A stretch of 64,000 bases of DNA from SAR202 cluster bacterium (lineage in GTDB: Bacteria > Chloroflexota > Dehalococcoidia > Lucifugimonadales > Lucifugimonadaceae), in the NCBI GenBank assembly GCA_009392215.1, contig VFGZ01000055.1, positions 1 through 64,000 of the forward strand, in the 5' to 3' direction. Made by a program: the position numbers and the translations under genes. The first letter of the stretch is position 1, and every line of letters begins with the position of its first letter. The notes below the pieces were generated by a model. It had not been told where the DNA came from, ran no database searches, and was given only the letters and a program-made list of their open reading frames with translations. This document shows, in pieces, positions 39,780 to 60,063 of this stretch.

Positions 39780-40949
39780 TTAAATTGATAGCAAGGTTTG
39801 ATCTTTGATTTGATCCCATTTAATTTCTCTGCCTAACCCTGGTGTTTGGGGTACGTGCATATATCCGTTTTCAATCCAATGGGTGTTCCTGATTAACTTT
39901 GAAGTTTCAGTTGTGAGTACACGATCTGGTGATGTAGGCTGCCACGCGGGATGCTCCCACCAATCGTCATTTCTGATAGCAGCTACTACATGAGGGTTGC
40001 CGCCATGACAGTTTATTCCGAACATCTCCGCCAAATTGGCCAGTTTAATTTGACCCGTTATGCCTAATCCCGTTTGGCGTACTATGTCTATTGATCCCGA
40101 GCTTAGATATGGTACTGCCAGATAAGGTGCACCCTGAACAGATTCCAAGGCGAGAATAGCTATATCCAGAGCGCCAGAAATCCGTTTTAGGCCACTGATG
40201 TCGGATTCTTGCAGAGGCTCTTCCATCCACAGAAAACCTAGCTTTTCGAGTTCTCTGCCGACCTTTATAGCTTCATCTACCGTGTATTGCTGGACTGGAT
40301 CATGCATTAGGACCATGTCGTCGCCAACGACATTACGTAATTCACCTGCCAATTTAATATTGGTTTCTACCCCTAGAATTGCATGGTCTTTAAATCCCAG
40401 AAATCCCTGAGCTTTTGCTCTGTCGGCTGAGGCTAAAGTGTCTTCGAAAGAAACAGCGGTTTCTGTCAGGTATGCCGGCACCTTGTCACGGAATCCGCCA
40501 ATCAGTTTATGTACTGGTAATCCTGATTTTTGACCGGCAAGATCCCAAAGCAATTCGTCAATCAGTGATAAAGGGCCGATTGTTGGCATGTGGAAATAGC
40601 GACGAGCCATCCACATTTTGTGCCAAATGTATTCCCTGTCCAGAGCATTCATACCTACCAGTTCGGGATCCCACTGAACTTTGAATGTTCGTGAATCCCA
40701 CTCTAATTGTTCCTTGCTCCAGGAAGACCACAGTACTCCTGGAGTTTCAATTCCGTCAGCAGTTTGTATGTTTAATATTGCAGCGTAGGCGGGTGTTGGC
40801 TTTCCGGTAATACCCGTGCCTTCAAAAGGTCTATGAGCGAATTTGGTACGGTGTGAGTCGGGATACTCTTGCATTTGGCGGAGGGGTCGCCATTCCGGTT
40901 CGAGTACGCCCAGATCGATTATGTCTATACGTAGTTCTTCAATCTTCAT
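39780..40949 (-). CDS. Enolase-superfamily protein 2 (divergent active site)
   Basis: A 389-residue enolase-superfamily protein with IGPLSLIDELLWDLAGQKSG as barrel entry. Metal ligands are seen as Asp in VLMHDPVQQY, Glu in LWMEEPL and Glu in AILALESV. The first catalytic strand has GFKDHAI (K-x-H instead of K-x-K), and the usual Pro-Asp in the later strand is replaced in DIVRQTGLGITGQ, so the His-Asp dyad is broken. A His remains in GINCHGGNPHV. It is therefore a diverged subgroup whose reaction cannot be inferred from mandelate racemase. It starts with ATG at 40949 and is followed by the M28 peptidase. Confidence 0.82.
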   Translation of the reverse strand: MKIEELRIDIIDLGVLEPEWRPLRQMQEYPDSHRTKFAHRPFEGTGITGKPTPAYAAILNIQTADGIETPGVLWSSWSKEQLEWDSRTFKVQWDPELVGMNALDREYIWHKMWMARRYFHMPTIGPLSLIDELLWDLAGQKSGLPVHKLIGGFRDKVPAYLTETAVSFEDTLASADRAKAQGFLGFKDHAILGVETNIKLAGELRNVVGDDMVLMHDPVQQYTVDEAIKVGRELEKLGFLWMEEPLQESDISGLKRISGALDIAILALESVQGAPYLAVPYLSSGSIDIVRQTGLGITGQIKLANLAEMFGINCHGGNPHVVAAIRNDDWWEHPAWQPTSPDRVLTTETSKLIRNTHWIENGYMHVPQTPGLGREIKWDQIKDQTLLSI

Positions 40950-43485: not shown

Positions 43486-44610
43486 TTAGGTTAACTCTGG
43501 GTCCGTGTGAATTTCATGCGGGTCAATTTCATCTGGACTAAGCTCTCGGCAAAGTTTTTTGTAAACCTGTATTCGATAGCGTCCTGAATCGACCATGAGA
43601 ATACTGTCATCAGGACCAATAGTTACCGATGTGGGGTTCTTGAATCTTTTTTCATCGTCGAGATTGACAACGTTTTCCCGTATTCGAACCATGTCGAGAT
43701 TTGTCATTAGTTTTCTGATGCCGCGTTCATTAAGGGTTGCATCTCCACGGAATGACTCTATGTACATCCCCCTAGGGTTGAACATTACAACCCTATGGTT
43801 ATTGCGATCTGCAACGTATATATCTCCATGGCTATCAACGGCTACTCCGCTGGGACGATTAAGCTCACCCGGTCCGTTCCCGGATTTACCGATAACTTGC
43901 AGAAGTTCGCCATTGAGGTCAAATCGTTGCAAACGGTCATTACGCCAGTCAGCGATGACCAGAGTGTTGGTGACTGGATCTAAGGTGACGCCCCAAGGGT
44001 GGTTGAATTGACCAGGTTTGATGCCAAAAGTCCCGAATCCAGAAATGTGCTTTCCTGCCGGGCTGAATCTTTCTAACCTGTGATTCAGGGTGCTTACGAC
44101 CCAAACGTTCCCATCAGAATCCAGTGTTATTCCAGATGGACCGTTTAGTTCTCCCGGCTTATCACCTGTTTTACCCCAATGATCAACAGCCGCTCCCGTT
44201 GATGAGTCAAATCTGGCTACTACGCCTGCATGCTCGTCAGTTACGTAAAGTACTCCGTTATTGTCGATTGTGCACATAACCGGCGATGGAAGAGTTTCTG
44301 AACCAACCTCATCTAATTCACCTGATAATGAGATTACGATATCGTTCTCATAGCCATCATCATTGAGGCGCACGCGGACGAAACGACTTCTGGGAACCGC
44401 AGTTCCTGATTCGGAGAAGCGATTTATTACATATAGCCATCCATCAGGACCTACGGCTACGTCTTGAGGACCCTTGAAACCACCTTGCGCCAGTCTTTGA
44501 CCAAGCGATATCTCATAACGATGACCAATGCGCAGCATTGGTGGATACAGGTTAATAGGATCAAACGTTTCTGAGTTGTGACCAATATTTGGAGTGGTTG
44601 TTGTCGTCAT
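43486..44610 (-). CDS. NHL-repeat six-bladed beta-propeller protein
   Basis: A 374-residue protein with about six NHL repeats, each with a GV-x-D/V-G-N-x-YV-D/A-x-x-N-HR pattern (for example GPSGITLDSDGNVWVVST and RPSGVAVDSHGDIYVADR). Propellers of this type bind ligands or carry peptidyl-alpha-hydroxyglycine lyase or lactonase activity. No signal peptide is present, and the N terminus is Thr-rich and polar. It starts at ATG 44610, 23 bases after the DUF1501 stop. It is the last gene of a leftward run with the DUF1501 and DUF1800 genes, so a shared function is likely. Confidence 0.85.
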   Translation of the reverse strand: MTTTTTPNIGHNSETFDPINLYPPMLRIGHRYEISLGQRLAQGGFKGPQDVAVGPDGWLYVINRFSESGTAVPRSRFVRVRLNDDGYENDIVISLSGELDEVGSETLPSPVMCTIDNNGVLYVTDEHAGVVARFDSSTGAAVDHWGKTGDKPGELNGPSGITLDSDGNVWVVSTLNHRLERFSPAGKHISGFGTFGIKPGQFNHPWGVTLDPVTNTLVIADWRNDRLQRFDLNGELLQVIGKSGNGPGELNRPSGVAVDSHGDIYVADRNNHRVVMFNPRGMYIESFRGDATLNERGIRKLMTNLDMVRIRENVVNLDDEKRFKNPTSVTIGPDDSILMVDSGRYRIQVYKKLCRELSPDEIDPHEIHTDPELT

Positions 44611-44633
44611 GGGATCATTCTTTCGAACAGAGA

Positions 44634-45815
44634 CTACAAAGGGTTTAGGATTCCTTCAAACTTTTCGAATTTACCGTTCACTATGGGTTCTGGTTGGACA
44701 TTTAGCCAGTCGTCCAGAATCGACGAATAAGTTGAACGGAAATCGTTGTTATAAGCCATGTCTCCGCTTACCTGGTTGGCTGGAGAGAGACTTGGGTATT
44801 CGCCGTATAGGCCTCCGTTTACCCGTTTACCGATTAGTAACGCGCCTCCACCAGAACCATGGTCGGTTCCATTTCCATTGTCTCTAACACGTCTTCCAAA
44901 TTCGGAAAAAACTAGCATGATTACTTCTTCATCTGCATTGTGATGTCGAAGATCGCTGAAAAAATCGTCGACAGCACGAGACACCTGCCCCCACAGTTTT
45001 GTCTGGGTCTGTATCTGGCTTCCATGTACGTCATACCCGCCATGTTGGGCATAAAAAACCCTTGTTCCTATGCCAGATAAATGAACTTGCGCAATCCCTC
45101 GCAGGCTTTGTGAAAGTGGGTCATCTGCGTATTCAACGTTTGACTTGTACTGGTTAGACACGTCACTAAGAGCCTCGATGCCAGCCATTGCATCAGTGCC
45201 GGTCTGTCCAATGTGTTTCATGATCATCGCAGCTTCATCAAACTCTTCTGGTGTGTACATGCGTGTAAAGGCGTTTAATGCCCGACGCTGTGCTTTGCCT
45301 GCCAGTGAGGTCAATAGTCCATAACTCTCTAGTTCGGTTACCGATATGGCCGGCGTACCACTCAAGTACATTGCACGTGGTAGCCCTGATCCGAAACTTA
45401 CTCCCGTGACCACGTTATGTTTTTTAGGATCCAGTTCTCTTATGGTCCTCCCAAGCCAACCTTCGCTGCTAAATTTATGTGGTTCTGCAGTGTGCCATAT
45501 ATCCATTGACCTGAAGTGGGATCGATCGGGATCCGGGTATCCGATTCCTTGAATTATCGCTACATCACCCTTGTCATAAAGAGATTTGATTGCTGCCATA
45601 GATGGATGAAATCCCACATGGTTGTTTATGTGGAGAATTTCATCTTCAGGTAGCCCGACTGTTTTTCGGAAATCGTAATAAAGGGTGTCTCCGTACGGTA
45701 CGACTGTGTTCATGAAGTCGTTTCCACCTGAAAGCTGTAGTACTACTAGTGTCGGTGTTGGGGATTTTTTGTTTCCGTTGATGTTAATTGACATTGTTAC
45801 CGCTTTCTTGCGCAT
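44634..45815 (-). CDS. DUF1501-family protein without an export signal
   Basis: A 393-residue DUF1501 protein, a member (as I recall) of the alkaline phosphatase/sulfatase clan. LVVLQLSGGNDFMNTVVPY is the opening metal-site segment, GYPDPDRSHFRSMDIWHT the region corresponding to the nucleophile, and TDHGSGGGALL plus VFSEFGRRVRDNGNGTDHG the late metal ligands. Most DUF1501 proteins have a Tat signal; none is seen here. The ATG at 45815 and one at 45794 are both possible, neither with a strong ribosome site. It lies between the DUF1800 gene (45 bases upstream) and the NHL gene (23 bases downstream). Confidence 0.85.
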   Translation of the reverse strand: MRKKAVTMSININGNKKSPTPTLVVLQLSGGNDFMNTVVPYGDTLYYDFRKTVGLPEDEILHINNHVGFHPSMAAIKSLYDKGDVAIIQGIGYPDPDRSHFRSMDIWHTAEPHKFSSEGWLGRTIRELDPKKHNVVTGVSFGSGLPRAMYLSGTPAISVTELESYGLLTSLAGKAQRRALNAFTRMYTPEEFDEAAMIMKHIGQTGTDAMAGIEALSDVSNQYKSNVEYADDPLSQSLRGIAQVHLSGIGTRVFYAQHGGYDVHGSQIQTQTKLWGQVSRAVDDFFSDLRHHNADEEVIMLVFSEFGRRVRDNGNGTDHGSGGGALLIGKRVNGGLYGEYPSLSPANQVSGDMAYNNDFRSTYSSILDDWLNVQPEPIVNGKFEKFEGILNPL

Positions 45816-45860
45816 ATCCCTGAATCAGTGGTAGTTCTTGTGAATATCTGATTGAATTAT

Positions 45861-47222
45861 TCATAACATTTGATATTCCTTCGAAGTACTTATCATGGTC
45901 AGTACTTCGGCTACTGCGTTAGTGAGTTCTGGTCCTTCACATTTGACGTTGTCATCTAATGACAATTCCTGCAGAAGTACTGTCCTTGTGGATTCATCAA
46001 GGTCAACGCATGCAAATTCGATTGCGCATAAATCCAGAAGATTTTCTCGGGTGATGGTCGAATGCTTGGCGCCAATTCTGTTGGAAATTTCGATAATTCC
46101 AGGTGATTTGGTATCACTTAGCTTTTCTGCAGCGAAGTTCAATCTTTCCACCAGGAATGCTGAATCTATCCATTCTCTACCTGTATGCCATCCTTCAACT
46201 GTAGGAGGATTCAACAGTTCCTGCCCCATCATGGATGAAAGTTCTGCGAGTTTGGCAAGCCCGAATTGTTGTGGGCTTCGGTGCTGTCCAGCTAGTTGCA
46301 CTGTGCCGACAATGAACTCTATTGGGCTTTTAACCCGGTTGAATCTTGATGATTTGAAGAAATCAGAGTTGAAAACGAAACGTAGCACGTCACGTATTTC
46401 ATATTTGTTGGTTAAATAGATATTGGCTATCTGATCTACTGCACTTTGATCTATTTCATCTGCGACAAAAAACTTGTAAATCTCTTGAGCTACGAATTTG
46501 CTTGTTGCAGGCTGTTTGACAATGATTTCAATCACGTCATCGCCGTTGAAATTTCCTGTTTCGCCTAGGAATGTTTTTTCAGTATCGTCGTGGTCGTCAC
46601 TTCTGTACACAAATTTTGATGGCCAGTACCCTGTTGGATAGCGAGGCAGAACGTGCGTTATTGTCCAACCACTGAAAGCCCTGGCACACGATCTGACGTC
46701 TTCTTCGGTGTAATTTCCTCGCCCCATGCTGAATAGTTCGAGTAGTTCTCTACCGTAGTTTTCATTCACTGCATCCGCGTGGTTAGTTTGTTGGTCGAGC
46801 CAATAGAGCATGGCTGGATCCCGAGATAGTTTTTGTAATAGAGTTTGAAAGTTATCAAGACCGTGCTCTCGTAGCATTTCATATTGTTCGGTCATCATGG
46901 GTCCGTTGGTAACTTTGGCCCATCCTGTAGCGAATATCCCGTGCCACATCAGCGCTATTTTTTCTTCCAACGGGTTTCTAGTGTTGATCATTCGGAAAAC
47001 CCATTTCACAGCCGACCAGCGTGGTGATTCTTCATCACAATGTTCCGAGTGAAAACGGTCTAACAGGTCTTCGTATGCTTCCTCGTTTTGGGTTGGGGCC
47101 AGAAGATTCTCGACGGTTTTTTCGTAACCAGCTTGTAATGCTGAATCTATGTCCGAATGATTTGCACTAAATCCGGTTCTTCTGAGCAAATGCGCAATAA
47201 GTTCACGGTCTTCGTTCGACAT
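45861..47222 (-). CDS. DUF1800-family protein
   Basis: A 453-residue DUF1800 protein, the common partner of DUF1501. LIAHLLRRTGFS at the start, LMWHGIFATGWAKV, NENYGRELLELFSMGRGNYTEEDV and ARAFSGWTI are family landmarks. No export signal is visible. I choose ATG at 47222 because GGAG lies six bases upstream; an in-frame start at 47294 would add 24 residues with no family match. Function unknown; the DUF1800/DUF1501 pair usually accompanies secreted degradative systems in Planctomycetes and Bacteroidetes. Here the pair is followed by an NHL propeller and preceded by a radical SAM maturase. Confidence 0.87.
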   Translation of the reverse strand: MSNEDRELIAHLLRRTGFSANHSDIDSALQAGYEKTVENLLAPTQNEEAYEDLLDRFHSEHCDEESPRWSAVKWVFRMINTRNPLEEKIALMWHGIFATGWAKVTNGPMMTEQYEMLREHGLDNFQTLLQKLSRDPAMLYWLDQQTNHADAVNENYGRELLELFSMGRGNYTEEDVRSCARAFSGWTITHVLPRYPTGYWPSKFVYRSDDHDDTEKTFLGETGNFNGDDVIEIIVKQPATSKFVAQEIYKFFVADEIDQSAVDQIANIYLTNKYEIRDVLRFVFNSDFFKSSRFNRVKSPIEFIVGTVQLAGQHRSPQQFGLAKLAELSSMMGQELLNPPTVEGWHTGREWIDSAFLVERLNFAAEKLSDTKSPGIIEISNRIGAKHSTITRENLLDLCAIEFACVDLDESTRTVLLQELSLDDNVKCEGPELTNAVAEVLTMISTSKEYQML

Positions 47223-47472
47223 AAGAGGCTCCACTACGATTAATGATATATCGCCGGCATTATGGCATGAAATCTGTACAAGCGCACCTGTCAATTTATT
47301 GGCGTATTACTTGAACATAAAGTTTGCATCGAGCGTCTTAATTTTTTCGACGGGCAATTTTTTTTACAACAATGCCGAGTATGGGAGAAATATCTGATTT
47401 TCGACTGGTTATTGAGATTGCAAATTGTCAAACTTCCCGCCTGTGCCTGAGCGCGCCAGTTGATGAACTTAC

Positions 47473-48822
47473 CTAAGATGATCCATGGCATCGTTTGAAT
47501 TTTTTACCACTATCACAGGGGCAATTATCGTTGCGTCCTACTCCTGTGTATGGATTGGGCGATGACTCTGGTATGAGACTGGTTTTCTGCATTATGTTTG
47601 CAGCTGGCTGGCCATTTCTAAGTTCGTTGACCATTGCCTTCATGTAGGGTTGGGTGTGCCCGAAGAATGTCTTGTAACCTGCGCAAAGATAGTTCAATCC
47701 ATCTTCACCATCGGGAGTCTTAATAAATCGCTGTTTGGGACAGCCCCCATTACAAGCGAAGCGGAATTCACATTTTCGACAGTATTCTGGTAGCGTATCT
47801 CTTTTATCGGTTCCGAATTTACGCTGCTTTGGGCTTTCTGCCATTTCGCGAATGGTTGTATCTGCTACATTACCGAGGTTGTATTCTGGATATACAAAAT
47901 GATCACATGAATACACATCTCCATTATGTTCTATGATCATTGCATCACCGCAAGTTTCTGCGAATATGCAAAGCCCCGGATTTTGTCCCATCCAGCCTGC
48001 TAGGGTGGTGTCGAAAATTTGTATGAAGTACTGTCCGATATCCTTTCGCACCCACTGATCGAACACGCCATTTAAAAATCGTCCGTACTGTTCGGACCCC
48101 ACAGACCATTCAGTGACGGTTGCACCATCTCTGAATTCGGGTCCAACCAACTGTAGGAAATGGGCAGGTAATTTATCGGCTACTCGTTCGACTATTGGGA
48201 TGAATTGCAGGAAATGACTGCCTACTTCTCTAGTGAGGAACTGGTATAGCTCCTTAGGGTGGTCTGCATTGTGTTTATGTAACACCGTAAGTGTGTTGAA
48301 TTCCACATTGTGCTTTTTGAGCACTTCGATGCCGGCCATCACCTTGTCCCAGGTCGGCTCACCGCCACGTCCGACTCTGTATCGATTGTGAATATCTTCA
48401 GGTCCGTCTATGGAAACACCAATGAGGAATTTTTCTTTTGCGAGAAACTCGCCCCATTCGTCGTCTATCAGGATTGCATTGGTCTGAAAAGCATTTGAAA
48501 TTTGTTTGTTGCCAGCGTATTGCTTTTGAAGCTTTACGGCTTTGCGGTAGAAATCGACCCCCAATAACGTAGGCTCTCCGCCCTGCCACGCAAAGTTTAC
48601 GACTGGGATGTCTTGAGCCTCTATGTATTGTTTTACATAAGCCTCGAGTTCTTCGTCGCCCATTTTCCACTGTCCGCGGGCTTTGTCTGGATAGAGTTTC
48701 TCTTTTTCAAGGTAGAAGCAATATGTGCAATCGATATTACAAATAGCTCCGCTGGGCTTTGCCATGACGTGCACGGCGAGCGGTCTTTTCATTTTTGGAC
48801 GGTTTTGATGGATTGTAGTCAT
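47473..48822 (-). CDS. Anaerobic sulfatase-maturase-type radical SAM/SPASM enzyme with C-terminal SEC-C zinc motif
   Basis: A 449-residue radical SAM protein. The SAM [4Fe-4S] cluster Cys are 28, 32 and 35 in CNIDCTYC. The barrel has NFAWQGGEPTLLG and FLIGVSIDGPEDIHNRYR. A SPASM domain (about 270-390) supplies further cluster Cys, with CGDAMIIEHNGDVYSCDHF and CRKCEFRFACNGGCPKQR. Residues 429-449 form a SEC-C motif with Cys434, Cys436, Cys445 and His446. Such enzymes convert a Cys or Ser in sulfatases to formylglycine. No sulfatase is in the window, but DUF1501 downstream has a sulfatase-like fold. ATG 48822; an ATG at 48792 is also possible. Confidence 0.9.
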   Translation of the reverse strand: MTTIHQNRPKMKRPLAVHVMAKPSGAICNIDCTYCFYLEKEKLYPDKARGQWKMGDEELEAYVKQYIEAQDIPVVNFAWQGGEPTLLGVDFYRKAVKLQKQYAGNKQISNAFQTNAILIDDEWGEFLAKEKFLIGVSIDGPEDIHNRYRVGRGGEPTWDKVMAGIEVLKKHNVEFNTLTVLHKHNADHPKELYQFLTREVGSHFLQFIPIVERVADKLPAHFLQLVGPEFRDGATVTEWSVGSEQYGRFLNGVFDQWVRKDIGQYFIQIFDTTLAGWMGQNPGLCIFAETCGDAMIIEHNGDVYSCDHFVYPEYNLGNVADTTIREMAESPKQRKFGTDKRDTLPEYCRKCEFRFACNGGCPKQRFIKTPDGEDGLNYLCAGYKTFFGHTQPYMKAMVNELRNGQPAANIMQKTSLIPESSPNPYTGVGRNDNCPCDSGKKFKRCHGSS

Positions 48823-48850: not shown

Positions 48851-49696
48851 TTACGATGGGGTTGGTGTATGGTCGCTAAACCATAGGGCTTGGGCAGTTT
48901 TACCTAGAATCGCTTTTTGGTCACTTTTTGAAAGACTTAATTCATCGGTAAATAGTGAAAGGTTTTGTGCATAGCTTGTACCTTTCGACCAAAGCGAGTT
49001 TGGGAAATTCGATCCCCACACGCATCTATTAGGAGTAAATGTATCGATTACCTGCTTCAAAAGTCCGTGCATGTCTTCATGGGGGTACACTCGTGCGGAG
49101 CCGTGAGTTCCGCTGGTCAATTTGGCGTACACGTTGGGAAGGCTTGACAATTTTTTCATGGAGTTGAGAGTTGATTCGGTCTTTCTGGTCGAATTAAGCA
49201 TCAGGCAGTGATCTATTACGATTCGGAGGTCATCCAATTTAAGGGATAGTTTTTCGATCTGCGATACCAGATCAAGATTATCCATAATCATGCAATTGAC
49301 AACTATTCCGAGATCACGGGCTTTGGCCCAAAGCCTTTCCACATTATTGGAGTGAATGTTCCCGTCTTTGTCTGGCGTGCCTCTCAAGCCACGGACAAAA
49401 TGATTCTTGACTGCGTCTTCAAGAATTTCGAGGTGTCCTTCGTCGTCAGGATTCAAAGTCACAACTCCGGTAGCCCATTCAGAGAACCGACGGGTTGAGT
49501 CCAAAATATAGCGATTGTCCCATCCGTAGAACGTACCGGTTTGTATGAAAACCGCACGGTCAACTCCTGCTGAATCCATTTTGAGTTTTAAATCCTCTGC
49601 CGTTGCTGGCTCTCCAGGATTCCAAGGGTCATTGATGGTTGGATATTTGTTTCGATTATTTGAATAAATATGTGGATGAGCGTCGACGATATGCAT
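48851..49696 (-). CDS. TIM-barrel amidohydrolase (LigI/ACMSD-type)
   Basis: A 281-residue amidohydrolase of the amidohydrolase-2 group. His7 and His9 in VDAHPHIYS are metal ligands, VIDHCLML holds a later His, and WGSNFPNSLW replaces the usual G-S-D-F-P with Asn at the catalytic Asp position. Members hydrolyse lactones (LigI) or decarboxylate aromatic acids. The Asp-to-Asn change makes normal catalysis doubtful or the subgroup distinct. I start at ATG 49696; an in-frame TTG at 49708 is less likely. It lies 28 bases before the maturase start on the same strand, so it may be cotranscribed. Confidence 0.8.
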   Translation of the reverse strand: MHIVDAHPHIYSNNRNKYPTINDPWNPGEPATAEDLKLKMDSAGVDRAVFIQTGTFYGWDNRYILDSTRRFSEWATGVVTLNPDDEGHLEILEDAVKNHFVRGLRGTPDKDGNIHSNNVERLWAKARDLGIVVNCMIMDNLDLVSQIEKLSLKLDDLRIVIDHCLMLNSTRKTESTLNSMKKLSSLPNVYAKLTSGTHGSARVYPHEDMHGLLKQVIDTFTPNRCVWGSNFPNSLWSKGTSYAQNLSLFTDELSLSKSDQKAILGKTAQALWFSDHTPTPS

Positions 49697-49778
49697 TTTT
49701 CTTATCAAGTTATTGGAAGATTTAAGATTTTCACTTTAGTTGTTGTGGTTGAGATTTAATACTTGATTATCTATGTGT

Positions 49779-50897
49779 TTATCGGTTGAATCTTTCCGGC
49801 CTATAGGGTGCGAGTATTTCCGTTTCGACGCCTGTTTTAATTTCTAAGGCGGCTATTTCTCCTATCAAAGGGGCGAGAGTTACACCTGAGTGAGTGTAAG
49901 AGATATATGCGTTTGGAGTTGATACTAGACGTCCGAGTACGGGCAGGCCATCGGGAGGCATTGGCCTTAAGGCGGAGCGCACCTCTTGGACTCTGAGATC
50001 TCTTGTCGAGGGTAGGTATTTGGCCGTTTCTTGGATAAGCATTTCTGCATCCTCTATAGATTTGTCCGCAATTGAGCCTGAGTGCGTGCCGCCGTGAATC
50101 ATTACCCGCCCGTCAGTTAGTTGTCGTGAGTTGATCAGGACACCTTCTAAATCTCTCGGGCTGTGCATCGCGGCGATGGAATTAAATAAAGGTTCGGTCA
50201 AAATATTGGTGATAACTGTTGCGCCTGGAGAATGGATGTTTTGAAATTTATATCCCAACATCTCTGCAATCTTTGGGGTTTCTGTACCAGCAGCTATTAC
50301 GACGGAGTCGCACGGGTACGTGTCTTTTGTCGTGACCACGTGACTGATTGAATTACGGTCTTTGATGAAGTTTGTTACCGATTCGTTTGTATGTATCAAG
50401 CCTCCGGTTTGTCTGACTGATGAGAGGCATCCATCTACGACTTTTTCTGGGTCTACATGTCCATCAGAATCTGTATAAGACACCGAAGTAGGATTCCCGA
50501 AACATATACCAGGTTCTAATTCAGTGGCTTCTTCAAGAGATATCTCACGGATTGAGTAACCCCACTCCTGTAGTTCGGTGATTCTAGAACGAAATTGCAT
50601 CGCCCCTGTTTCCGTGGCTGACCAACGCATTTCACCGCCCCATACCAATCCTATATCTGTCTGTAGATCATCTTCGAATCTTCTCCACATATCCTGAGAT
50701 CTACGGTTTAATTCGTGATATCCGAACGGATGTTTATCTCGTGCGTTTATCCATGCGTAAGAAACTTTTGAGGCTTGCTGTGCTGGTTGTTGGGATTCAA
50801 TAACATCCACTTGCATACCACTCTTTGCAAGATGAAAAGCTATTGAAGCACCTACAATGCCTCCACCGATAACGATCGTGTGTTTTGGATGGGTCAT
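49779..50897 (-). CDS. FAD-dependent oxidoreductase, DAO/glycine oxidase type
   Basis: A 372-residue flavoprotein. The dinucleotide motif is VIGGGIVGASIAFHLAKSG near residues 9-27, with Glu at the end of the second strand (VIESQQP). SDGHVDPEKVVDG and VIAAGTETPKIAEML are typical of DAO/DadA and glycine oxidases. The C-terminal HSGVTLAPLIGEIAALEI closes the FAD domain. It oxidises an amino group of a D- or N-substituted amino acid to an imine. Its ATGA overlaps the end of enolase paralog 3 by four bases. Genes for amide hydrolysis nearby fit an amino-acid product. Confidence 0.87.
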   Translation of the reverse strand: MTHPKHTIVIGGGIVGASIAFHLAKSGMQVDVIESQQPAQQASKVSYAWINARDKHPFGYHELNRRSQDMWRRFEDDLQTDIGLVWGGEMRWSATETGAMQFRSRITELQEWGYSIREISLEEATELEPGICFGNPTSVSYTDSDGHVDPEKVVDGCLSSVRQTGGLIHTNESVTNFIKDRNSISHVVTTKDTYPCDSVVIAAGTETPKIAEMLGYKFQNIHSPGATVITNILTEPLFNSIAAMHSPRDLEGVLINSRQLTDGRVMIHGGTHSGSIADKSIEDAEMLIQETAKYLPSTRDLRVQEVRSALRPMPPDGLPVLGRLVSTPNAYISYTHSGVTLAPLIGEIAALEIKTGVETEILAPYRPERFNR

Positions 50898-52096
50898 CTG
50901 ATAGAGTCCTCAGGCGAGAGATAAGTAACCCGAGATTGATTTCCGTGCTCCCACGGGACAATCCAATCCTCATGTACTTCTAATCCGAATCCTGGCGCGT
51001 CAGATGGGATAACCGTTCCGTTTTCAGGTATGGAAACGCCCGGTAAAAGCCTATCGCCGAGAGCTTGCCCAACATTTGTATCCATAAACCATTCAGCCAA
51101 AGATGATTCAGGCATGGACATTGCAAAGTGCTGACCCCATGCGGTATTGCCACCCATGTGAGTAATAGTTTCTATTCCTGCAGCTTCAGCATTTGTGTAT
51201 ATCTTCAAGGTTTCTGACAGTCCACCTGTGTATTCGATGTCGGGCTGGAGGATGTCGGCAGCTCTTGCTGAAATCAATTGGTGGAAACTTTTGCGTCCAT
51301 AGTGATGCTCACCTGTTGCCAGTGCTGTCCAGGTCATTGCACGTTTTAGTTCGATGTAACCTTCAAGGTCCCATGGTGGTAGAGGTTCTTCAAACCATCT
51401 CAGATTGTATGGGCGAAGTCGTTCTGCTACTCGGAGTGCTAAATCCGTATTGAACGACATGACTGGATTGAATGTCAGTTCCGCATTTTCGCCTACTATT
51501 TCTCTGGATTTTGCAACATGCTCTTCAAGCTTTTTGAGTCCTTCAGATCCTTCTTCGTAAAAAAATGGGTTACTGATTTTGAATCTCTTAAAGCCAAGCT
51601 CTTTCATCCATTCAAGATCGTCACCGGTAGCGTACAGTTCGACCGCTTCTCGGCTGGGACCACCGATGAGTTCGAAAACGGGCCTGCTCAGTAATTTACC
51701 TTTTAGATCCCACAGTGCCAGGTCGACGCCACTCTGAGCTGCGGTTGCAATGCCGCCCTGAAATCCTTCACTTGAACGCCAGATCAAATCGTTTATTAAT
51801 TCAATGGCGAGCGCGTTTTTCCCTTCTATCAGTGGAGCAATGAAGTAGTCAATTAAAGACGCGCCGACTTGTCCGTGGGCGAAAGATCCTAGACCAAACG
51901 TACCGTCTTCAGCGGTAATTTGGACCCAGGCTTTTTTTGTTGTCCCTGGCTTATGACCGTCTACTCGCGTAAATTCTGGATATCTTGCAATGGGATTTGA
52001 TCGTATTGCATGGGTGTTCCATCCGGGTCTAGTATCGGGACCAGGTGTGATTAGTGGTGTGTTTATTTGTACACAGCGAACAGTTTTTATCTTCAT
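50894..52096 (-). CDS. Enolase-superfamily protein 3, rhamnonate-dehydratase-like, Asn at first metal-ligand position
   Basis: A 400-residue protein. SGVDLALWDLKGKLLSRPVF and the ELYATGDD segment match the L-rhamnonate dehydratase subgroup. The first metal-ligand position reads LTFNPVMSFN, with Asn where RhamD has Asp; Glu in RWFEEPL and Glu in LATGEHHYG follow. The first catalytic strand is FKRFKISNP. His is present in THMGGNTAWGQHF. I use ATG at 52096, one base after the TGA of paralog 4; the ATG at 52135 overlaps that gene and adds unmatched residues. Paralog 4 and this gene are tandem duplicates. The Asn suggests altered metal binding or a different substrate. Confidence 0.85.
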   Translation of the reverse strand: MKIKTVRCVQINTPLITPGPDTRPGWNTHAIRSNPIARYPEFTRVDGHKPGTTKKAWVQITAEDGTFGLGSFAHGQVGASLIDYFIAPLIEGKNALAIELINDLIWRSSEGFQGGIATAAQSGVDLALWDLKGKLLSRPVFELIGGPSREAVELYATGDDLEWMKELGFKRFKISNPFFYEEGSEGLKKLEEHVAKSREIVGENAELTFNPVMSFNTDLALRVAERLRPYNLRWFEEPLPPWDLEGYIELKRAMTWTALATGEHHYGRKSFHQLISARAADILQPDIEYTGGLSETLKIYTNAEAAGIETITHMGGNTAWGQHFAMSMPESSLAEWFMDTNVGQALGDRLLPGVSIPENGTVIPSDAPGFGLEVHEDWIVPWEHGNQSRVTYLSPEDSIR

Positions 52097-52097
52097 A

Positions 52098-53267
52098 TCA
52101 GCTTGTGCCCCATTCGCTGATATCGCCATGCTCAATGGCCATGCCGAAGCCCGGTTCTGATGATGGAACTATTTTGCCGTTTACTGGTGTTGCGGTGCCG
52201 GGGATACGGATTGTGTTTTCAAGTGGCACGCCCGGATCTGTGCCCAGCCAGTATTCTGCCATTGGGGATTCGGTGGCTGCCATTGCGAAGTGTTGTCCGA
52301 ACGGATTATTGGCACCGCCATGAGGGATCGTCGCGATTCCAGCGGTCTCTCCGATTGTGTGTATTTTCATTGCCTCCGTCAGCCCTCCGCCCCAATTTAG
52401 ATCAGGCTGTAGGATGTCTGCCGCACGTTTTTCAACTAGGTCAAGAAACGCATGTCGACCGTGGTGGTCTTCTCCTGTAGCGATTGCAACCCATGGTGCT
52501 GACTTTCGTAGTCTGGCGAGGCCGTCATTGTCTGTAGGAACTAATGGTTCCTCAAGCCACCTTAGATTGTATGGTCGCAAATGTTCAAGCAGGCGCTGGG
52601 CGAACTCGAAGTTGTAAGACATCACTGGATTGATCATTAGGTCGCGTTCTGCTCCGACACGTTCTCTTGCTTGAGAGACGTGATCGACCACAGCCTTGAT
52701 GCCGGCATCTCCGTCTGAGTAGTGCGATGGGTTAGTGATCTTGAATTTGGTGAAACCAAGTTCTTGAGACCAGTCCAAATCGTCTGATGTTGCGTAACAC
52801 GTAATAGACTCTCGGACTGGTCCTCCAAGAAGTGCGTAAACAGGTTGGTTGAGAATTTTGCCTTTAAGATCCCATAACGCTAAATCAACTCCACTCATTG
52901 CCGTTGAGGCTGTACCTGAAGTTCCAAATCTTTGAGAGACTCGCAGGATCAAGTCATTTAAGTGTTCGATTGCCATACAGTTTTGACCTTCGATAATCGG
53001 AGCGATCACGGTGTTGATGAAGGCTGAGACAGGCTCTCCAAATGCACACTCTCCCAGGCCCCATGTGCCATCTTCTGCGACCACTTTTACCCATACTGTG
53101 TCTAGTTGGCCTCCGGGCATATCGTGGGGATATCGTGAAAACCTAGGGTATAAATTTATAGGCATAGCTCGTTTGGCTGACTTATTCCAAGACGGGCGAC
53201 GTGGATTAACCTTACTGATTTGTTCGGGTAGGCTTACTCGTACGGACCTGACGGATTTAATTTTCAA
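52098..53267 (-). CDS. Enolase-superfamily protein 4, rhamnonate-dehydratase-like, Asn at first metal-ligand position
   Basis: A 389-residue paralog of the gene downstream. SGVDLALWDLKGKILNQPVY and ITCYATSDD, and SEPGFGMAIEHGD near the C terminus, match rhamnonate dehydratase layout. DLMINPVMSYN has Asn in place of the metal Asp; Glu in RWLEEPL and Glu in IATGEDHHG remain. FTKFKITNP has a K-x-K, and His lies in IPHGGANNPFGQHF. Start is TTG at 53267 with an AGAG six to eight bases upstream. A one-base junction links it to paralog 3, whose product starts right after. These two and the DAO gene form one operon. Confidence 0.85.
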   Translation of the reverse strand: MKIKSVRSVRVSLPEQISKVNPRRPSWNKSAKRAMPINLYPRFSRYPHDMPGGQLDTVWVKVVAEDGTWGLGECAFGEPVSAFINTVIAPIIEGQNCMAIEHLNDLILRVSQRFGTSGTASTAMSGVDLALWDLKGKILNQPVYALLGGPVRESITCYATSDDLDWSQELGFTKFKITNPSHYSDGDAGIKAVVDHVSQARERVGAERDLMINPVMSYNFEFAQRLLEHLRPYNLRWLEEPLVPTDNDGLARLRKSAPWVAIATGEDHHGRHAFLDLVEKRAADILQPDLNWGGGLTEAMKIHTIGETAGIATIPHGGANNPFGQHFAMAATESPMAEYWLGTDPGVPLENTIRIPGTATPVNGKIVPSSEPGFGMAIEHGDISEWGTS

Positions 53268-53307: not shown

Positions 53308-54369
53308 ATGGATATTCGCAGAGCCGAAAGTCTACCAATGCGAGAGGGAGAAAGATCGGTGATAGGCCAATCAGTTAGCTTGGATCATTTTCAATCGTCA
53401 TGGTCTGACGAACCAGGCTATGAACAACTGGTAGTTAATCGGATTCATCATTCAGGAGAGATGATTGAGCTGCCCGTAGCGCGTATACGTGGTGCTCAAC
53501 CTGGACCTTTTCTTACAGTGATGTCAGGGATGCATGCAGGTGAATACTCGGGGATTCTTGCCGCCCAGAAACTTATTTCAACTGTAGATCCGATGGAACT
53601 TTCAGGGACTCTTATTGTTATTCCTGTGATTTCGACCCGTGCATTCATGGAACGAAATATGCAGTTGAGTCCTGTAGATCAGAAAGAAGTTCATTTTATC
53701 CGACCAGGAAATTCGGGTGGGACATACAGTGACTTACTGATCGACACACTTTTTGAGGTGGTAAAAAACTCAGATTACCTGATCGATTCGCACGCGGGAG
53801 AGATGGCACAGGCGTTAATGCCCTGGGTCCCAATTCCCATTAAAGGCTCTAATAGCTTGATTGAGCAGTCACTCTCGCTTGCTCGTGGGTTTGATGTCAA
53901 ATACATCGAGCCGAGAAGCGATGAAGCTTCGATCCCACCTTTTTGCCTGGCTCTTCTGGAAGAGGGGATTCCTAATATATGGGTTGAGTGCGGAAAAAAC
54001 GGTGTTCCGACTTCAAAAGATACTGCTACTCATTTAGAAGGCTATATAGCTGCTATGCAAACGCTGGATATGATTGACGGAGAACCGGCCCGCCCACCTC
54101 AGGAAGTACTAAAAGGCCGACGCTATCAAATCAATGCGAATATGTCAGGCGTATGGCATCCCGCGGTCAATGAAGGGGAAATCGTTGAATCAGGTCAGTA
54201 CCTAGGACGCATGACGGATTATTTTGGCAACATACTAGAGGAGTTTCATGCTCCACATCGCTCACTCGTTTTGTACTACTGGTCAAGCCCTGCCATTAAT
54301 GTAGATCGTCGACCTTTTGGATATGACTGGCATAGTGGTCTTGTTAGTTTGTTGGACCTTGAGTCATAA
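53308..54369 (+). CDS. Succinylglutamate desuccinylase/aspartoacylase (AstE/AspA) family protein
   Basis: A 353-residue M14-type zinc deacylase. GMHAGEYSG near residue 74 gives the His and Glu zinc ligands, IDSHAGEMAQ the second His, and IWVECGKNG the catalytic Glu. The C-terminal beta domain is about 260-353. It deacylates N-acyl amino acids or similar amides. ATG at 53308 has no good ribosome site; an in-frame ATG at 53338 is an alternative. It is divergent from paralog 4 and followed by an M19 dipeptidase eight bases later, so the pair form an operon. Confidence 0.85.
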   Translation: MDIRRAESLPMREGERSVIGQSVSLDHFQSSWSDEPGYEQLVVNRIHHSGEMIELPVARIRGAQPGPFLTVMSGMHAGEYSGILAAQKLISTVDPMELSGTLIVIPVISTRAFMERNMQLSPVDQKEVHFIRPGNSGGTYSDLLIDTLFEVVKNSDYLIDSHAGEMAQALMPWVPIPIKGSNSLIEQSLSLARGFDVKYIEPRSDEASIPPFCLALLEEGIPNIWVECGKNGVPTSKDTATHLEGYIAAMQTLDMIDGEPARPPQEVLKGRRYQINANMSGVWHPAVNEGEIVESGQYLGRMTDYFGNILEEFHAPHRSLVLYYWSSPAINVDRRPFGYDWHSGLVSLLDLES

Positions 54370-54376
54370 TCTCACA

Positions 54377-55384
54377 ATGTCTGATTTTCCTGTTTATCTT
54401 GCACACGATCATACCCAACGGGCGGAAGACTACCTGCGAGATCTTCAAGGTGGAGTTACCGGTAAGATACTCCACCTTACAATTGACTCGTGGATTGAAG
54501 CGCCAACTAAGCAAAAATACCTTGAAGCATATGATAGCTACGATGGTTTTAGGCAACGTGGCCTTGATGCGTTAACGAAATTGCATGCCATTGCCGATGA
54601 CCCTAGAAATAAGGTTCGTGTCATCCGAGAGTTTTCGGATCTTGAGATGGCTCGCAATGCAGGTCAATTGGCTATTATTGCGGGCAACGAAGGAGGCAAG
54701 ATTCTCGGGTCCCGTACAGGTTTAATCGATGCCTGGTTTCCCATGGGTTTGCGACATGTTCAATTTAACTGGGCAATGCCGAATTTACTGGGTGCCTCCC
54801 AGACACAAGAAGACGATCCGGATCAACCTGGTCTTACAGAGTTTGGCCGAGAGGCGATTGAAATAATGAATGCGCGGGGAATGATAGTTGATGTTTCACA
54901 TTCTGCTCCTCAAACGATTATCGATGCATTAGAAGCTACTTCTAAACCGATATTGAACTCTCATTCTGGTGGTAGATCTATCGCGGACAAGCAACAAAAT
55001 TTGTGGGATGGACAGATACGTGCAATGGCGGATAATGGAGGTGTTATAGGGATACATTTTTGTTCAAGATTGGTACTTGGCCAAAATGGTGTCCAGGCAG
55101 AAATCAGTGACGTTGTGCGTCAGATTCGCTACGTGTACGAAGTTGGTGGAATCGATGTTGTTGGGTTGGGTCCTGATTGGGTTTTAGGTGATCCTGCCCG
55201 TGATGTTCCCTACCTGCGTAACACCGATCAGGAAGATTTGACCTGGGCAAAGGGGCTGGAAGATTCAGGTGAATTGCCAAATCTGTGGGACCCACTATCA
55301 GCATCAGGTTTTACGTCTGCTGAAATTGAAAAGATAGCTGGTGGAAATATGCTGCGATTGTTTAGGGATGTTTTACCAAGCTGA
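54377..55384 (+). CDS. M19-type (renal dipeptidase-like) membrane dipeptidase homolog
   Basis: A 335-residue protein. IAGNEGGKIL replaces the E-G-G loop, MIVDVSHSAPQTIIDA and ILNSHSGGRSI are the M19 His-rich segments, and VVGLGPDWVLG stands where G-S-D-F-D-G is usual. The N-terminal His-x-Asp motif is shifted (LAHDHTQRAE). The change G-S-D-F to G-P-D-W suggests a diverged subgroup. M19 enzymes cleave dipeptides, often with a D-residue at the C terminus. I start at ATG 54377, eight bases after the upstream stop, rather than an in-frame ATG inside the previous gene. It is cotranscribed with the AstE/AspA gene. Confidence 0.82.
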   Translation: MSDFPVYLAHDHTQRAEDYLRDLQGGVTGKILHLTIDSWIEAPTKQKYLEAYDSYDGFRQRGLDALTKLHAIADDPRNKVRVIREFSDLEMARNAGQLAIIAGNEGGKILGSRTGLIDAWFPMGLRHVQFNWAMPNLLGASQTQEDDPDQPGLTEFGREAIEIMNARGMIVDVSHSAPQTIIDALEATSKPILNSHSGGRSIADKQQNLWDGQIRAMADNGGVIGIHFCSRLVLGQNGVQAEISDVVRQIRYVYEVGGIDVVGLGPDWVLGDPARDVPYLRNTDQEDLTWAKGLEDSGELPNLWDPLSASGFTSAEIEKIAGGNMLRLFRDVLPS

Positions 55385-58041: not shown

Positions 58042-60063
58042 ATGACCTCACGAGTTTATCCTGATCATGATACGGCCGAAGTTGCGATTGACGATATTCT
58101 TGGCATTGACGAGGATCCTGCAAACCGTGAGATCCAAACCCATGCTGATGGTCCTAAGGGGACCGTTCCATTTACGGCTGAGTTTCTTATTGAAGAACCC
58201 AGTGGTAATCATTTTGGAATGACTCAGAATGCCGGGATGGGCTGGAATCCTTCAGAGTTGATGCGAAAGCAATTCATTATTCTTTCAACTGTTGGTGGCG
58301 TTAAACACGAAGATGGTTCACCCATAGCGCTCGGGTTGCACACAGGTCATTTTGAATTGCGTGACATGGTTACCGACGCTGCTGAAGAACTAAAAAAACT
58401 GAAATCTGTTCCATTCGCAGCTTTTTGTTCCGATCCTTGTGATGGCAGGACTCAAGGAACTACTGGCATGCTCGATTCACTTCCTTATCGGAATGATGCA
58501 GCTCAGGTTTTCAGGCGCATTGCCCGCTCATTGCCCACCGTGCGAGGAGTTTTGGGGGTTGCTTCCTGTGATAAGGGCTTGCCTGCAATGATGATGGCTT
58601 TGGCTGGGCTTCGCAGTCAGCCTACGGTTGTCGTTCCTGGCGGAACGACACTCAAGCCTAATGTCGGAGAGGATACGGGTCAGATTCAATCAATTGGAGC
58701 CAGGTTTGCTCAAGGTGAAGTGACTCTTGAGTATGCACAGGATGTTGGGTGTCGATCATGCGCGTCACCCGGAGGAGGGTGTCAATTTCTTGGGACCGCT
58801 GGTACTTCACAGGTTGTTGCTGAGGCGCTGGGTCTTGCAATAACCCATTCCGCCCTTTCACCAAGTGGAACTCCTGCCTGGCATGACATTGCACGTCGTT
58901 CTGCACGTGCCTTAGTGATGATGGAACATCGCGGAGTAACTTCTAGAGATATTTTGGTAGACGCTGCTTTTGAGAATGCGATGGCGGTTCATGCTGCTTG
59001 CGGAGGTTCCACAAACCTGTTGTTGCACATGCCAGCGATTGCCCATGCCGCCGGGCGAAAGCGTATGACTGTCGAAGACTGGAACAGAGTCAATTTAGAT
59101 GTTCCCAGATTGGTTGATGTTTTACCGAACGGACCAGTTGGGCATCCTACTACCCAGCTGTATGCTGCAGGTGGTGTTCCAGAGGTGATGTTGCACCTGC
59201 GCAGTTTGGGTCTTATAAACACGGATGTTCTTACTGCTACAGGTCAGACACTTGATGAGAACCTTGATTGGTGGGAAGACTCTGAGCGACGCCATGATGT
59301 CCGAAAATACCTCAAAGACGTTGACGGTGTAAATCCCGAGGACGTCATCATGTCGCCGGATCGTGCAAGTGAAAAGAAACTTACCAGTACCGTGACATTC
59401 CCCAGAGGCAACATTGCACCCGAAGGTTCTGTAATTAAAAGTACTGCAATAGATCCTTCAGTTGTCGACAGTGACGGCGTGTATAGAAAAGTTGGTCCTG
59501 CTCGAGTATTTCGATCAGAGCGTGCTGCGATGGGTGCGATTAAGTCTAGAGATGACGAACATAAAATTAAGGCAGGTGACATCATGATCGTCACATGCGG
59601 CGGCCCTCTTGGAACGGGTATGGAGGAGGTGTATCAGTTGACAGCCGCGCTCAAACATCTTTCATATGGTAAACACGTAGCGCTGATAACCGATGCAAGA
59701 TTTTCTGGGGTATCAACAGGAGCCTGTATTGGTCATGTGGGCCCAGAAGCACTTGCAGGAGGTCCGATTGGCCGCGTAAGAGACGGGGATCTGATCGAAA
59801 TTAACATAGATCGAAAAGACCTGTCAGGTTCACTTAACCTCATTGGGAACAGTGGTGAAAATAAAGGTGTTGATTGGGGTACTGACGAGCTAGAAAGACG
59901 ATCTACCCCAAGTGACTTAGCACCGCATCCGCAGTTGCCTGACGACTCTCGCTTGTGGGCTGCCCTTCAATCTGCGAGCGGAGGGACATGGGGAGGATGT
60001 GTTTTTGATGTGGACTCTATAGTCGAGACGATCGAAGCGGGGAAGAAAGCTTTAGGGCGTTAG
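58042..60063 (+). CDS. yjhG: YjhG/YagF-type sugar acid (D-xylonate) dehydratase, IlvD/Edd family
   Basis: A 673-residue IlvD/Edd dehydratase. [10 protein letters not shown]-like [45 protein letters not shown] and [17 protein letters not shown] carry the Fe-S Cys, and [22 protein letters not shown] is the C-terminal signature. The length (about 650-670, longer than IlvD or Edd) and these segments match YjhG/YagF, known as D-xylonate dehydratases in E. coli. It removes water from a sugar acid to a 2-keto-3-deoxy acid. ATG at 58042. Its stop is adjacent to that of the convergent amidohydrolase (60064). With the neighbouring galactonate dehydratase-like gene it suggests pentonate or hexonate use. 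Confidence 0.88.

Follow-up and report, generated by a model that had tools for sequence, protein, structure and literature searches.

An asparagine at the predicted first metal-ligand position marks a clade of L-rhamnonate dehydratase-like proteins that includes a tandem pair from a SAR202 genome

Few features of the enolase superfamily are as basic and as widely shared as its metal triad. Its members commonly have three acidic ligands, but this is no strict requirement, an exception being D-glucarate dehydratase, in which one of the metal ligands, the third, is Asn. In L-rhamnonate dehydratase (RhamD), to which the proteins described here are most closely related among solved structures, the first metal ligand is presumably the Asp of a DCWMS motif (D226). 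Expansion of COG4948 paralogs of this superfamily is described in passages on SAR202 genomes (PMC6946804, PMC10444878), and parts of the second source propose that these paralogs serve non-phosphorylative sugar and sugar-acid catabolism and describe cultured SAR202 group I strains that utilise L-fucose and L-rhamnose as well as the lactone and acid forms of these sugars (PMC10444878). Here we analyse two adjacent minus-strand genes (referred to as A and B) in the first 64,000 nucleotides (referred to as the window) of contig VFGZ01000055.1, from the SAR202 cluster bacterium assembly GCA_009392215.1. Both encode RhamD-like proteins with an Asn at the position of the RhamD Asp.

Gene A (50894..52096) encodes 400 and gene B (52098..53267) 389 amino acids. 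In phmmer alignments, the NPVMS motif of both proteins lies gap-free over the DCWMS of the solved L-rhamnonate dehydratases, and this alignment places the AAT codons at 51467..51469 in A and 52629..52631 in B (Asn213) at the first metal-ligand position. The Asn at this position had already been noted in a first-pass annotation of the window, and this observation is confirmed. That annotation had named a nearby Asp in the ligand role as the alternative to look for. Such a displaced Asp, or a misalignment, was rejected, since the stretch is gap-free and the sole nearby acid, a D/E four positions upstream, also occurs in two rows of an Asp-type sister clade. The usual three acidic metal ligands, and with them the RhamD trait of Asp as first ligand, are thus replaced by Asn-Glu-Glu in A and B, which leaves their fold and domain membership unaffected.

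The remainder of the active site is retained throughout the clade of Asn-type proteins to which A and B belong. Glu239 of B (52551..52553), the second metal ligand, which we take to correspond to RhamD E252, and Glu266 (52470..52472), the third, presumably equivalent to E280, are both Glu in 63/63 Asn-type rows. His316 (52320..52322), the presumed general acid/base and by our assignment the counterpart of RhamD H329, is likewise His in 63/63, and its partner Asp289 (52401..52403) is Asp in 62/63 and Glu in one, so that the Asp-His catalytic dyad of RhamD is present in the clade. Lys176, Asp163 and His326 are invariant as well. The first-pass annotation had credited both copies with the other Glu ligands and a late His; the two Glu ligands, the dyad and the Lys are indeed kept in both, but the residue after the third ligand is His in A only and Asp in B, so that the His complement differs between the copies. 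Across the clade this residue (position 267) is Asp in 41/63 proteins and His in 21, A among them. Asp267 was considered as a compensating acid for the lost Asp and rejected, since with His in these 21 proteins it can be no general substitute. Compared with the sister clade, the Asn clade has Val for Trp at position 215 and His for Trp at 268, but His at 268 is also found in RhamD and only the Val at 215 is peculiar to the Asn clade.

Relatives for the phylogenetic analysis were drawn from 60 related genomes, 40 wider stretches and a named genome collection. The last contributed the best 80 of at least 583 relatives, found with patterns from the Asn-type alignment and therefore a biased sample, and 25 of these 80 loci contain an Asn-type gene. 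Seven near-duplicate rows and five fragments were dropped before counting; two of the fragments carried Asn and one Asp, and the other two, pieces of L144, showed Ala or a gap at the ligand position. The tree set was limited to RhamD plus rows scoring over 215 bits (119 of 137 kept), yielding 63 proteins with Asn in the ligand column and 56 with Asp. When the five motif columns were masked, the 63 Asn proteins all grouped in one clade with a Shimodaira–Hasegawa-like approximate likelihood ratio test (SH-aLRT) support of 100 and a single state change. The same single change was recovered with a support of 99 after removal of 24 columns, including clade-marking ones, and of seven odd or long rows (60 Asn and 52 Asp proteins left); both trees were quick searches without bootstraps. 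The sister clade, counted after exclusion of seven outlying Asp rows from the 56, has Asp in 49/49 proteins.

Asn is the derived state, as RhamD and the remaining outlying rows carry Asp, and because A and B occupy separate sub-branches inside the Asn clade, the Asp-to-Asn change predates the A/B split. The trees thus indicate that A and B owe their Asn to shared ancestry and one old substitution. A parallel change in both copies had initially been taken as the sign of a stable subgroup. This wording has to be abandoned in favour of one change inherited once from a common ancestor, and A and B are therefore not two independent witnesses. As judged from the alignment, the real support for a stable subgroup is the 63/63 conservation of the Asn over at least six phyla.

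Among the named members of the clade are representatives of Chloroflexota, Poribacteria, Gemmatimonadota, Latescibacterota, Planctomycetota and Pseudomonadota. Those from Pseudomonadota include Pigmentiphaga kullae K24 and Hydrogenophaga sp. 2FB, neither labelled as a metagenome-assembled genome, and most other members stem from metagenome bins, in which individual taxon assignments may err. Within the genus of the window the pair was found in 16 of the 19 genomes searched (G000-G018), the remaining three (G001, G007 and G009) yielding matches of about 40% identity only, and 11/294 genomes from the class matched the Asn-type profile at 1e-100, some of these matches being Asp-type. The Asn is encoded by AAC in 38 and by AAT in 25 members of the clade. 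The pairwise Nei-Gojobori ratio of nonsynonymous to synonymous substitution rates (dN/dS) ranged from 0.03 to 0.16 in 8/16 comparisons, with dS saturated in the other eight, and the clade is under strong purifying selection. Decay is further disfavoured because all but the first ligand are kept, and the view of a stable, non-decaying subgroup taken in the first-pass annotation is upheld on these grounds. As to the further Asn members that it suggested be sought, all 63 Asn proteins of the tree set fall in this one clade, and their neighbours vary outside the genus. In a single genome (G013), the B orthologue (L037:10169-11338) is split into two open reading frames (ORFs) of 265 and 115 amino acids, through either decay or assembly error.

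Both proteins have the domains of the enolase superfamily of MR/MLE type, MR_MLE_N and MR_MLE_C, with scores for PF02746 and PF13378 of 42.4 and 157 bits in A and 49.8 and 142.1 bits in B (Pfam gathering scores 22 and 29.4). The best solved relative of both is the L-rhamnonate dehydratase 2oz3_A (phmmer E-values of 1.4e-53 for A and 2.6e-58 for B). An AlphaFold model of B, built from 22 Asn-type rows, reached a mean predicted local distance difference test score (pLDDT) of 87.5 and a predicted template modelling score (pTM) of 0.90. Its strands 174-177, 209-212, 237-239 and 261-264 lie at or next to Lys176, Asn213, Glu239 and Glu266, respectively, and in this model the strand ending at 212, right before Asn213, matches a ligand at the end of a barrel strand. 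When 999 solved chains were aligned to the model, the top matches were RhamD entries (Z 44.6-46.1), with 2oz3_F at Z 46.1 and a root-mean-square deviation of 2.4 over 376 aligned residues, so that B has the overall fold of L-rhamnonate dehydratase.

In the 1.8-Mb genome of the window, 57 enolase-superfamily proteins of the A/B kind could be read, in agreement with the known SAR202 enolase expansion. Together with relatives labelled Dehalococcoidia or Chloroflexi, this expansion suggests that the window belongs to SAR202 group I. The first-ligand residue among the 57 proteins is Asp in 47, Glu in seven, Asn in two and Gly in one, and the two Asn-type proteins are A and B themselves (the parallel comparison in G013 covered 30 loci of 78 matches, with 34 proteins). 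The Gly stands in a LEVGIGTH motif, at the aligned first-ligand position of a protein found in the window's genome and in G013 (L158 and L187), and may represent another variant of the ligand or result from a shift in the alignment. The expansion itself is already known, but the ligand-swapped subfamily was not found in the literature searched: under the terms searched, the accessible portions of PMC6946804 and PMC10444878 yielded no mention of metal ligands or of an Asn subfamily, and a wider search on Asn ligands in the enolase superfamily, covering the enzymology journals in part, returned nothing on this subfamily.

The junctions of the pair are tight. Gene A most likely starts at the ATG at 52096 rather than at the TTG at 52135 given in the ORF list, because of the conserved M-K-I-K and the 1-nucleotide gap to B. 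The TGA of B (52100-52098) is followed by a T and the ATG of A (TGATATG), and this gap recurs in 13/15 measured pairs. On the other side, the TGA of A overlaps by 4 nucleotides (50894-50897) with the ATG of a minus-strand gene for a DAO-family flavin adenine dinucleotide oxidoreductase (49779..50897; Pfam DAO). These junctions, on which the first-pass annotation had based a single operon with the DAO gene, are real, but beyond the window only 3/15 other genus loci have the DAO gene next to the pair, and a shared DAO operon was rejected as a functional signature. In most remaining genus members the slot beside the pair is occupied by a third, more distant enolase gene (GENLFG motif; L040:11541-12776 and orthologues).

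The next minus-strand gene encodes an Amidohydro_2 protein (48851..49708) that domain and family scans identify as distant kin of L-fuconolactonase and 4-sulfomuconolactone hydrolase, and hence likely a lactonase. A lactonase-like amidohydrolase follows the pair in 15/16 genus genomes, the contig of the sixteenth ending first, and an HpcH/HpaI aldolase lies near the pair in 10/16, with no aldolase of this type seen next to the pair in the window. The link to the DAO gene is thus lineage-specific, whereas the lactonase-like and aldolase-like neighbours are steadier in the genus. Further syntenic genes encode an anaerobic sulfatase-maturating radical SAM enzyme (47473..48822, minus strand; NCBIfam TIGR03942 over cut-off) and, upstream and divergent on the plus strand, an AstE/AspA-like deacylase (53308..54369; domain and family scans) and a Peptidase M19 family protein (54317..55384; domain scan), the latter two each found within 5 kb in 10/15 genus loci.

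In loci outside the genus, most Asn-type genes occur singly. In L083 a DHDPS-family gene, the Asn-type gene, a Gfo/Idh/MocA dehydrogenase and an amidohydrolase stand in a row, and in L127 a DHDPS-family ORF overlaps the Asn-type ORF. A UxuA-like mannonate dehydratase relative lies next to or near the Asn-type gene in L074-L076 and likewise in L072, and D-2-hydroxyacid dehydrogenases are near it in L082 and L091. One neighbour cluster (c82) was rejected as a real gene, being a wrong-frame ORF over an IclR regulator.

Three other stretches of the window were noted in passing. About 5 kb from the pair, 58042-60063 (plus strand) encodes a YjhG/YagF family D-xylonate dehydratase of the IlvD/EDD type, far over cut-off. 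The stretch 39780-40949 (minus strand) encodes a divergent member of the enolase superfamily, which has LMHDPV at the first ligand and unusual surroundings of the third. Finally, 43486-47294 (minus strand) holds three neighbouring ORFs, which from their reading we take to encode an NHL-like repeat protein and, probably, a DUF1501 and a DUF1800 protein. This trio may correspond to the COG3391/4102/5267 set, the counts of which correlate with expansions in SAR202 according to passages of PMC6946804.

Whereas the pattern of residues, its single origin, the purifying selection, the coupling of the tandem genes and, for B, the similarity in fold are observed, a metal, a reaction and a kind of substrate are inferred for A and B. 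It seems reasonably probable that both belong to an old, functional subfamily of RhamD-like sugar-acid dehydratases in which Mg2+ is held by Asn-Glu-Glu, with the amide oxygen of the Asn replacing the carboxylate of the Asp. With the carboxylate of a sugar acid bound to this divalent metal, the His316-Asp289 pair would abstract the proton adjoining the carboxylate and assist the departure of the neighbouring hydroxyl, which would yield a 2-keto-3-deoxy acid. Being less negative, the site would differ in metal affinity and substrate preference, with a more negative substrate or another metal as possibilities, and A and B would differ in substrate. An active dehydratase using an Asn oxygen is plausible in view of the third-ligand Asn of D-glucarate dehydratase and the Glu at the first ligand in 3stp, 3ssz and 3sqs. 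The neighbours suggest sugar-acid catabolism, and the pathway might run from a lactone to an aldolase step. The consumption of L-rhamnose, L-fucose and their acids and lactones by cultured group I strains (PMC10444878) also speaks for this reading.

Several observations weigh against this dehydratase assignment. On NF011968, the L-rhamnonate dehydratase equivalog, A and B score 218.3 and 244.2 bits, well under the cut-off of 393, and because of this they are better regarded as relatives with a swapped ligand and should not bear the name L-rhamnonate dehydratase. No fixed neighbourhood of the Asn-type gene was found in the 32 loci outside the genus, where contexts vary. Nor are candidate pathway genes enriched there compared with Asp-type loci: DHDPS kin occur in 3/32 versus 2/48, Gfo/Idh kin in two or three of 32 (depending on the seed) versus 10 or 11 of 48, and lactonase-like kin in 1/32 versus 5/48, so that the neighbours fix no substrate, nor even dehydration. 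In addition, the exchanges of Trp for Val at 215 and for His at 268 relative to the sister clade could point to a different reaction.

Such a different reaction within the enolase superfamily (epimerisation, cycloisomerisation or the elimination from a di-anionic acid), in which the neutral Asn would adapt the site to a substrate of more negative charge, as the Asn of D-glucarate dehydratase might suggest, strikes us as an unlikely but serious competitor. The spread of first-ligand residues within the genome, together with the Glu of 3stp, 3ssz and 3sqs, indicates that swaps at this ligand are tolerated, and the DAO, AstE-like and M19 neighbours are not classical sugar-acid genes. However, the closest solved relatives in both sequence and fold are RhamD, the Asp and His of the dyad are kept, and lactonase and aldolase kin are nearby. 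We give similarly guarded credence to a broader scenario, in which the Asn clade is a distinct and widespread family that arose by one Asp-to-Asn change with remodelling of a neighbouring aromatic, leading to a new metal preference or reaction class, and in which a later SAR202 duplication produced the translationally coupled A-B pair with split substrates.

The loss of one acidic ligand, and the joint presence of A and B in the genus, often beside the third enolase gene, could also be reconciled with proteins that bind no metal and have a non-catalytic or regulatory role, for example as partners of other enolases of the cluster. We consider this improbable: metal loss would normally relax the two Glu ligands, the Lys and the Asp-His dyad, all of which are retained, and outside the genus the Asn-type gene mostly stands single. 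An artefact of sequencing, assembly or decay as the source of the Asn might be suspected from the draft state of the genome (69 contigs) and the broken B gene of G013, but is scarcely credible and already refuted by the breadth of conservation, given 63/63 Asn residues over many independent assemblies from at least six phyla, the use of both Asn codons and the low dN/dS.

As a large and old group with a neutral first ligand, the clade offers a natural test of the charge needed at the metal for proton abstraction. It also delimits, within the enolase expansion of SAR202, a unit that can be annotated, the substrates of this expansion being of interest for ocean carbon cycling, and calls for caution in that these genes are not to be named L-rhamnonate dehydratase.

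Compared with known systems, A and B most resemble L-rhamnonate dehydratase (PDB 2oz3, 2i5q, 2p3z/3box and 3fxg), their best match in sequence and fold, with which they share the two Glu ligands, the Asp-His dyad and the two-domain enolase fold. They differ from it in an overall identity of about 30%, in the Asn at the position of its Asp and in the Val at the position of its Trp two residues further. The Asp-type sister clade ('LMLDCWMA', e.g. L055, L059, L098 and the Devosia protein L114) belongs to the same family and has the same other ligands, but retains the Asp and has Trp at both 215 and 268 in 49/49 proteins. The RhamD-like structures 3stp, 3ssz and 3sqs, deposited as putative galactonate dehydratase or mandelate racemase/muconate lactonizing proteins, likewise have a non-Asp first ligand, which in the printed alignments is Glu and not the Asn of A and B. 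D-glucarate dehydratase shares an Asn ligand with A and B, at the third rather than the first position. The COG4948 expansion of SAR202, as far as described in the passages available from PMC6946804 and PMC10444878, concerns the same superfamily and the same kind of genome as A and B.

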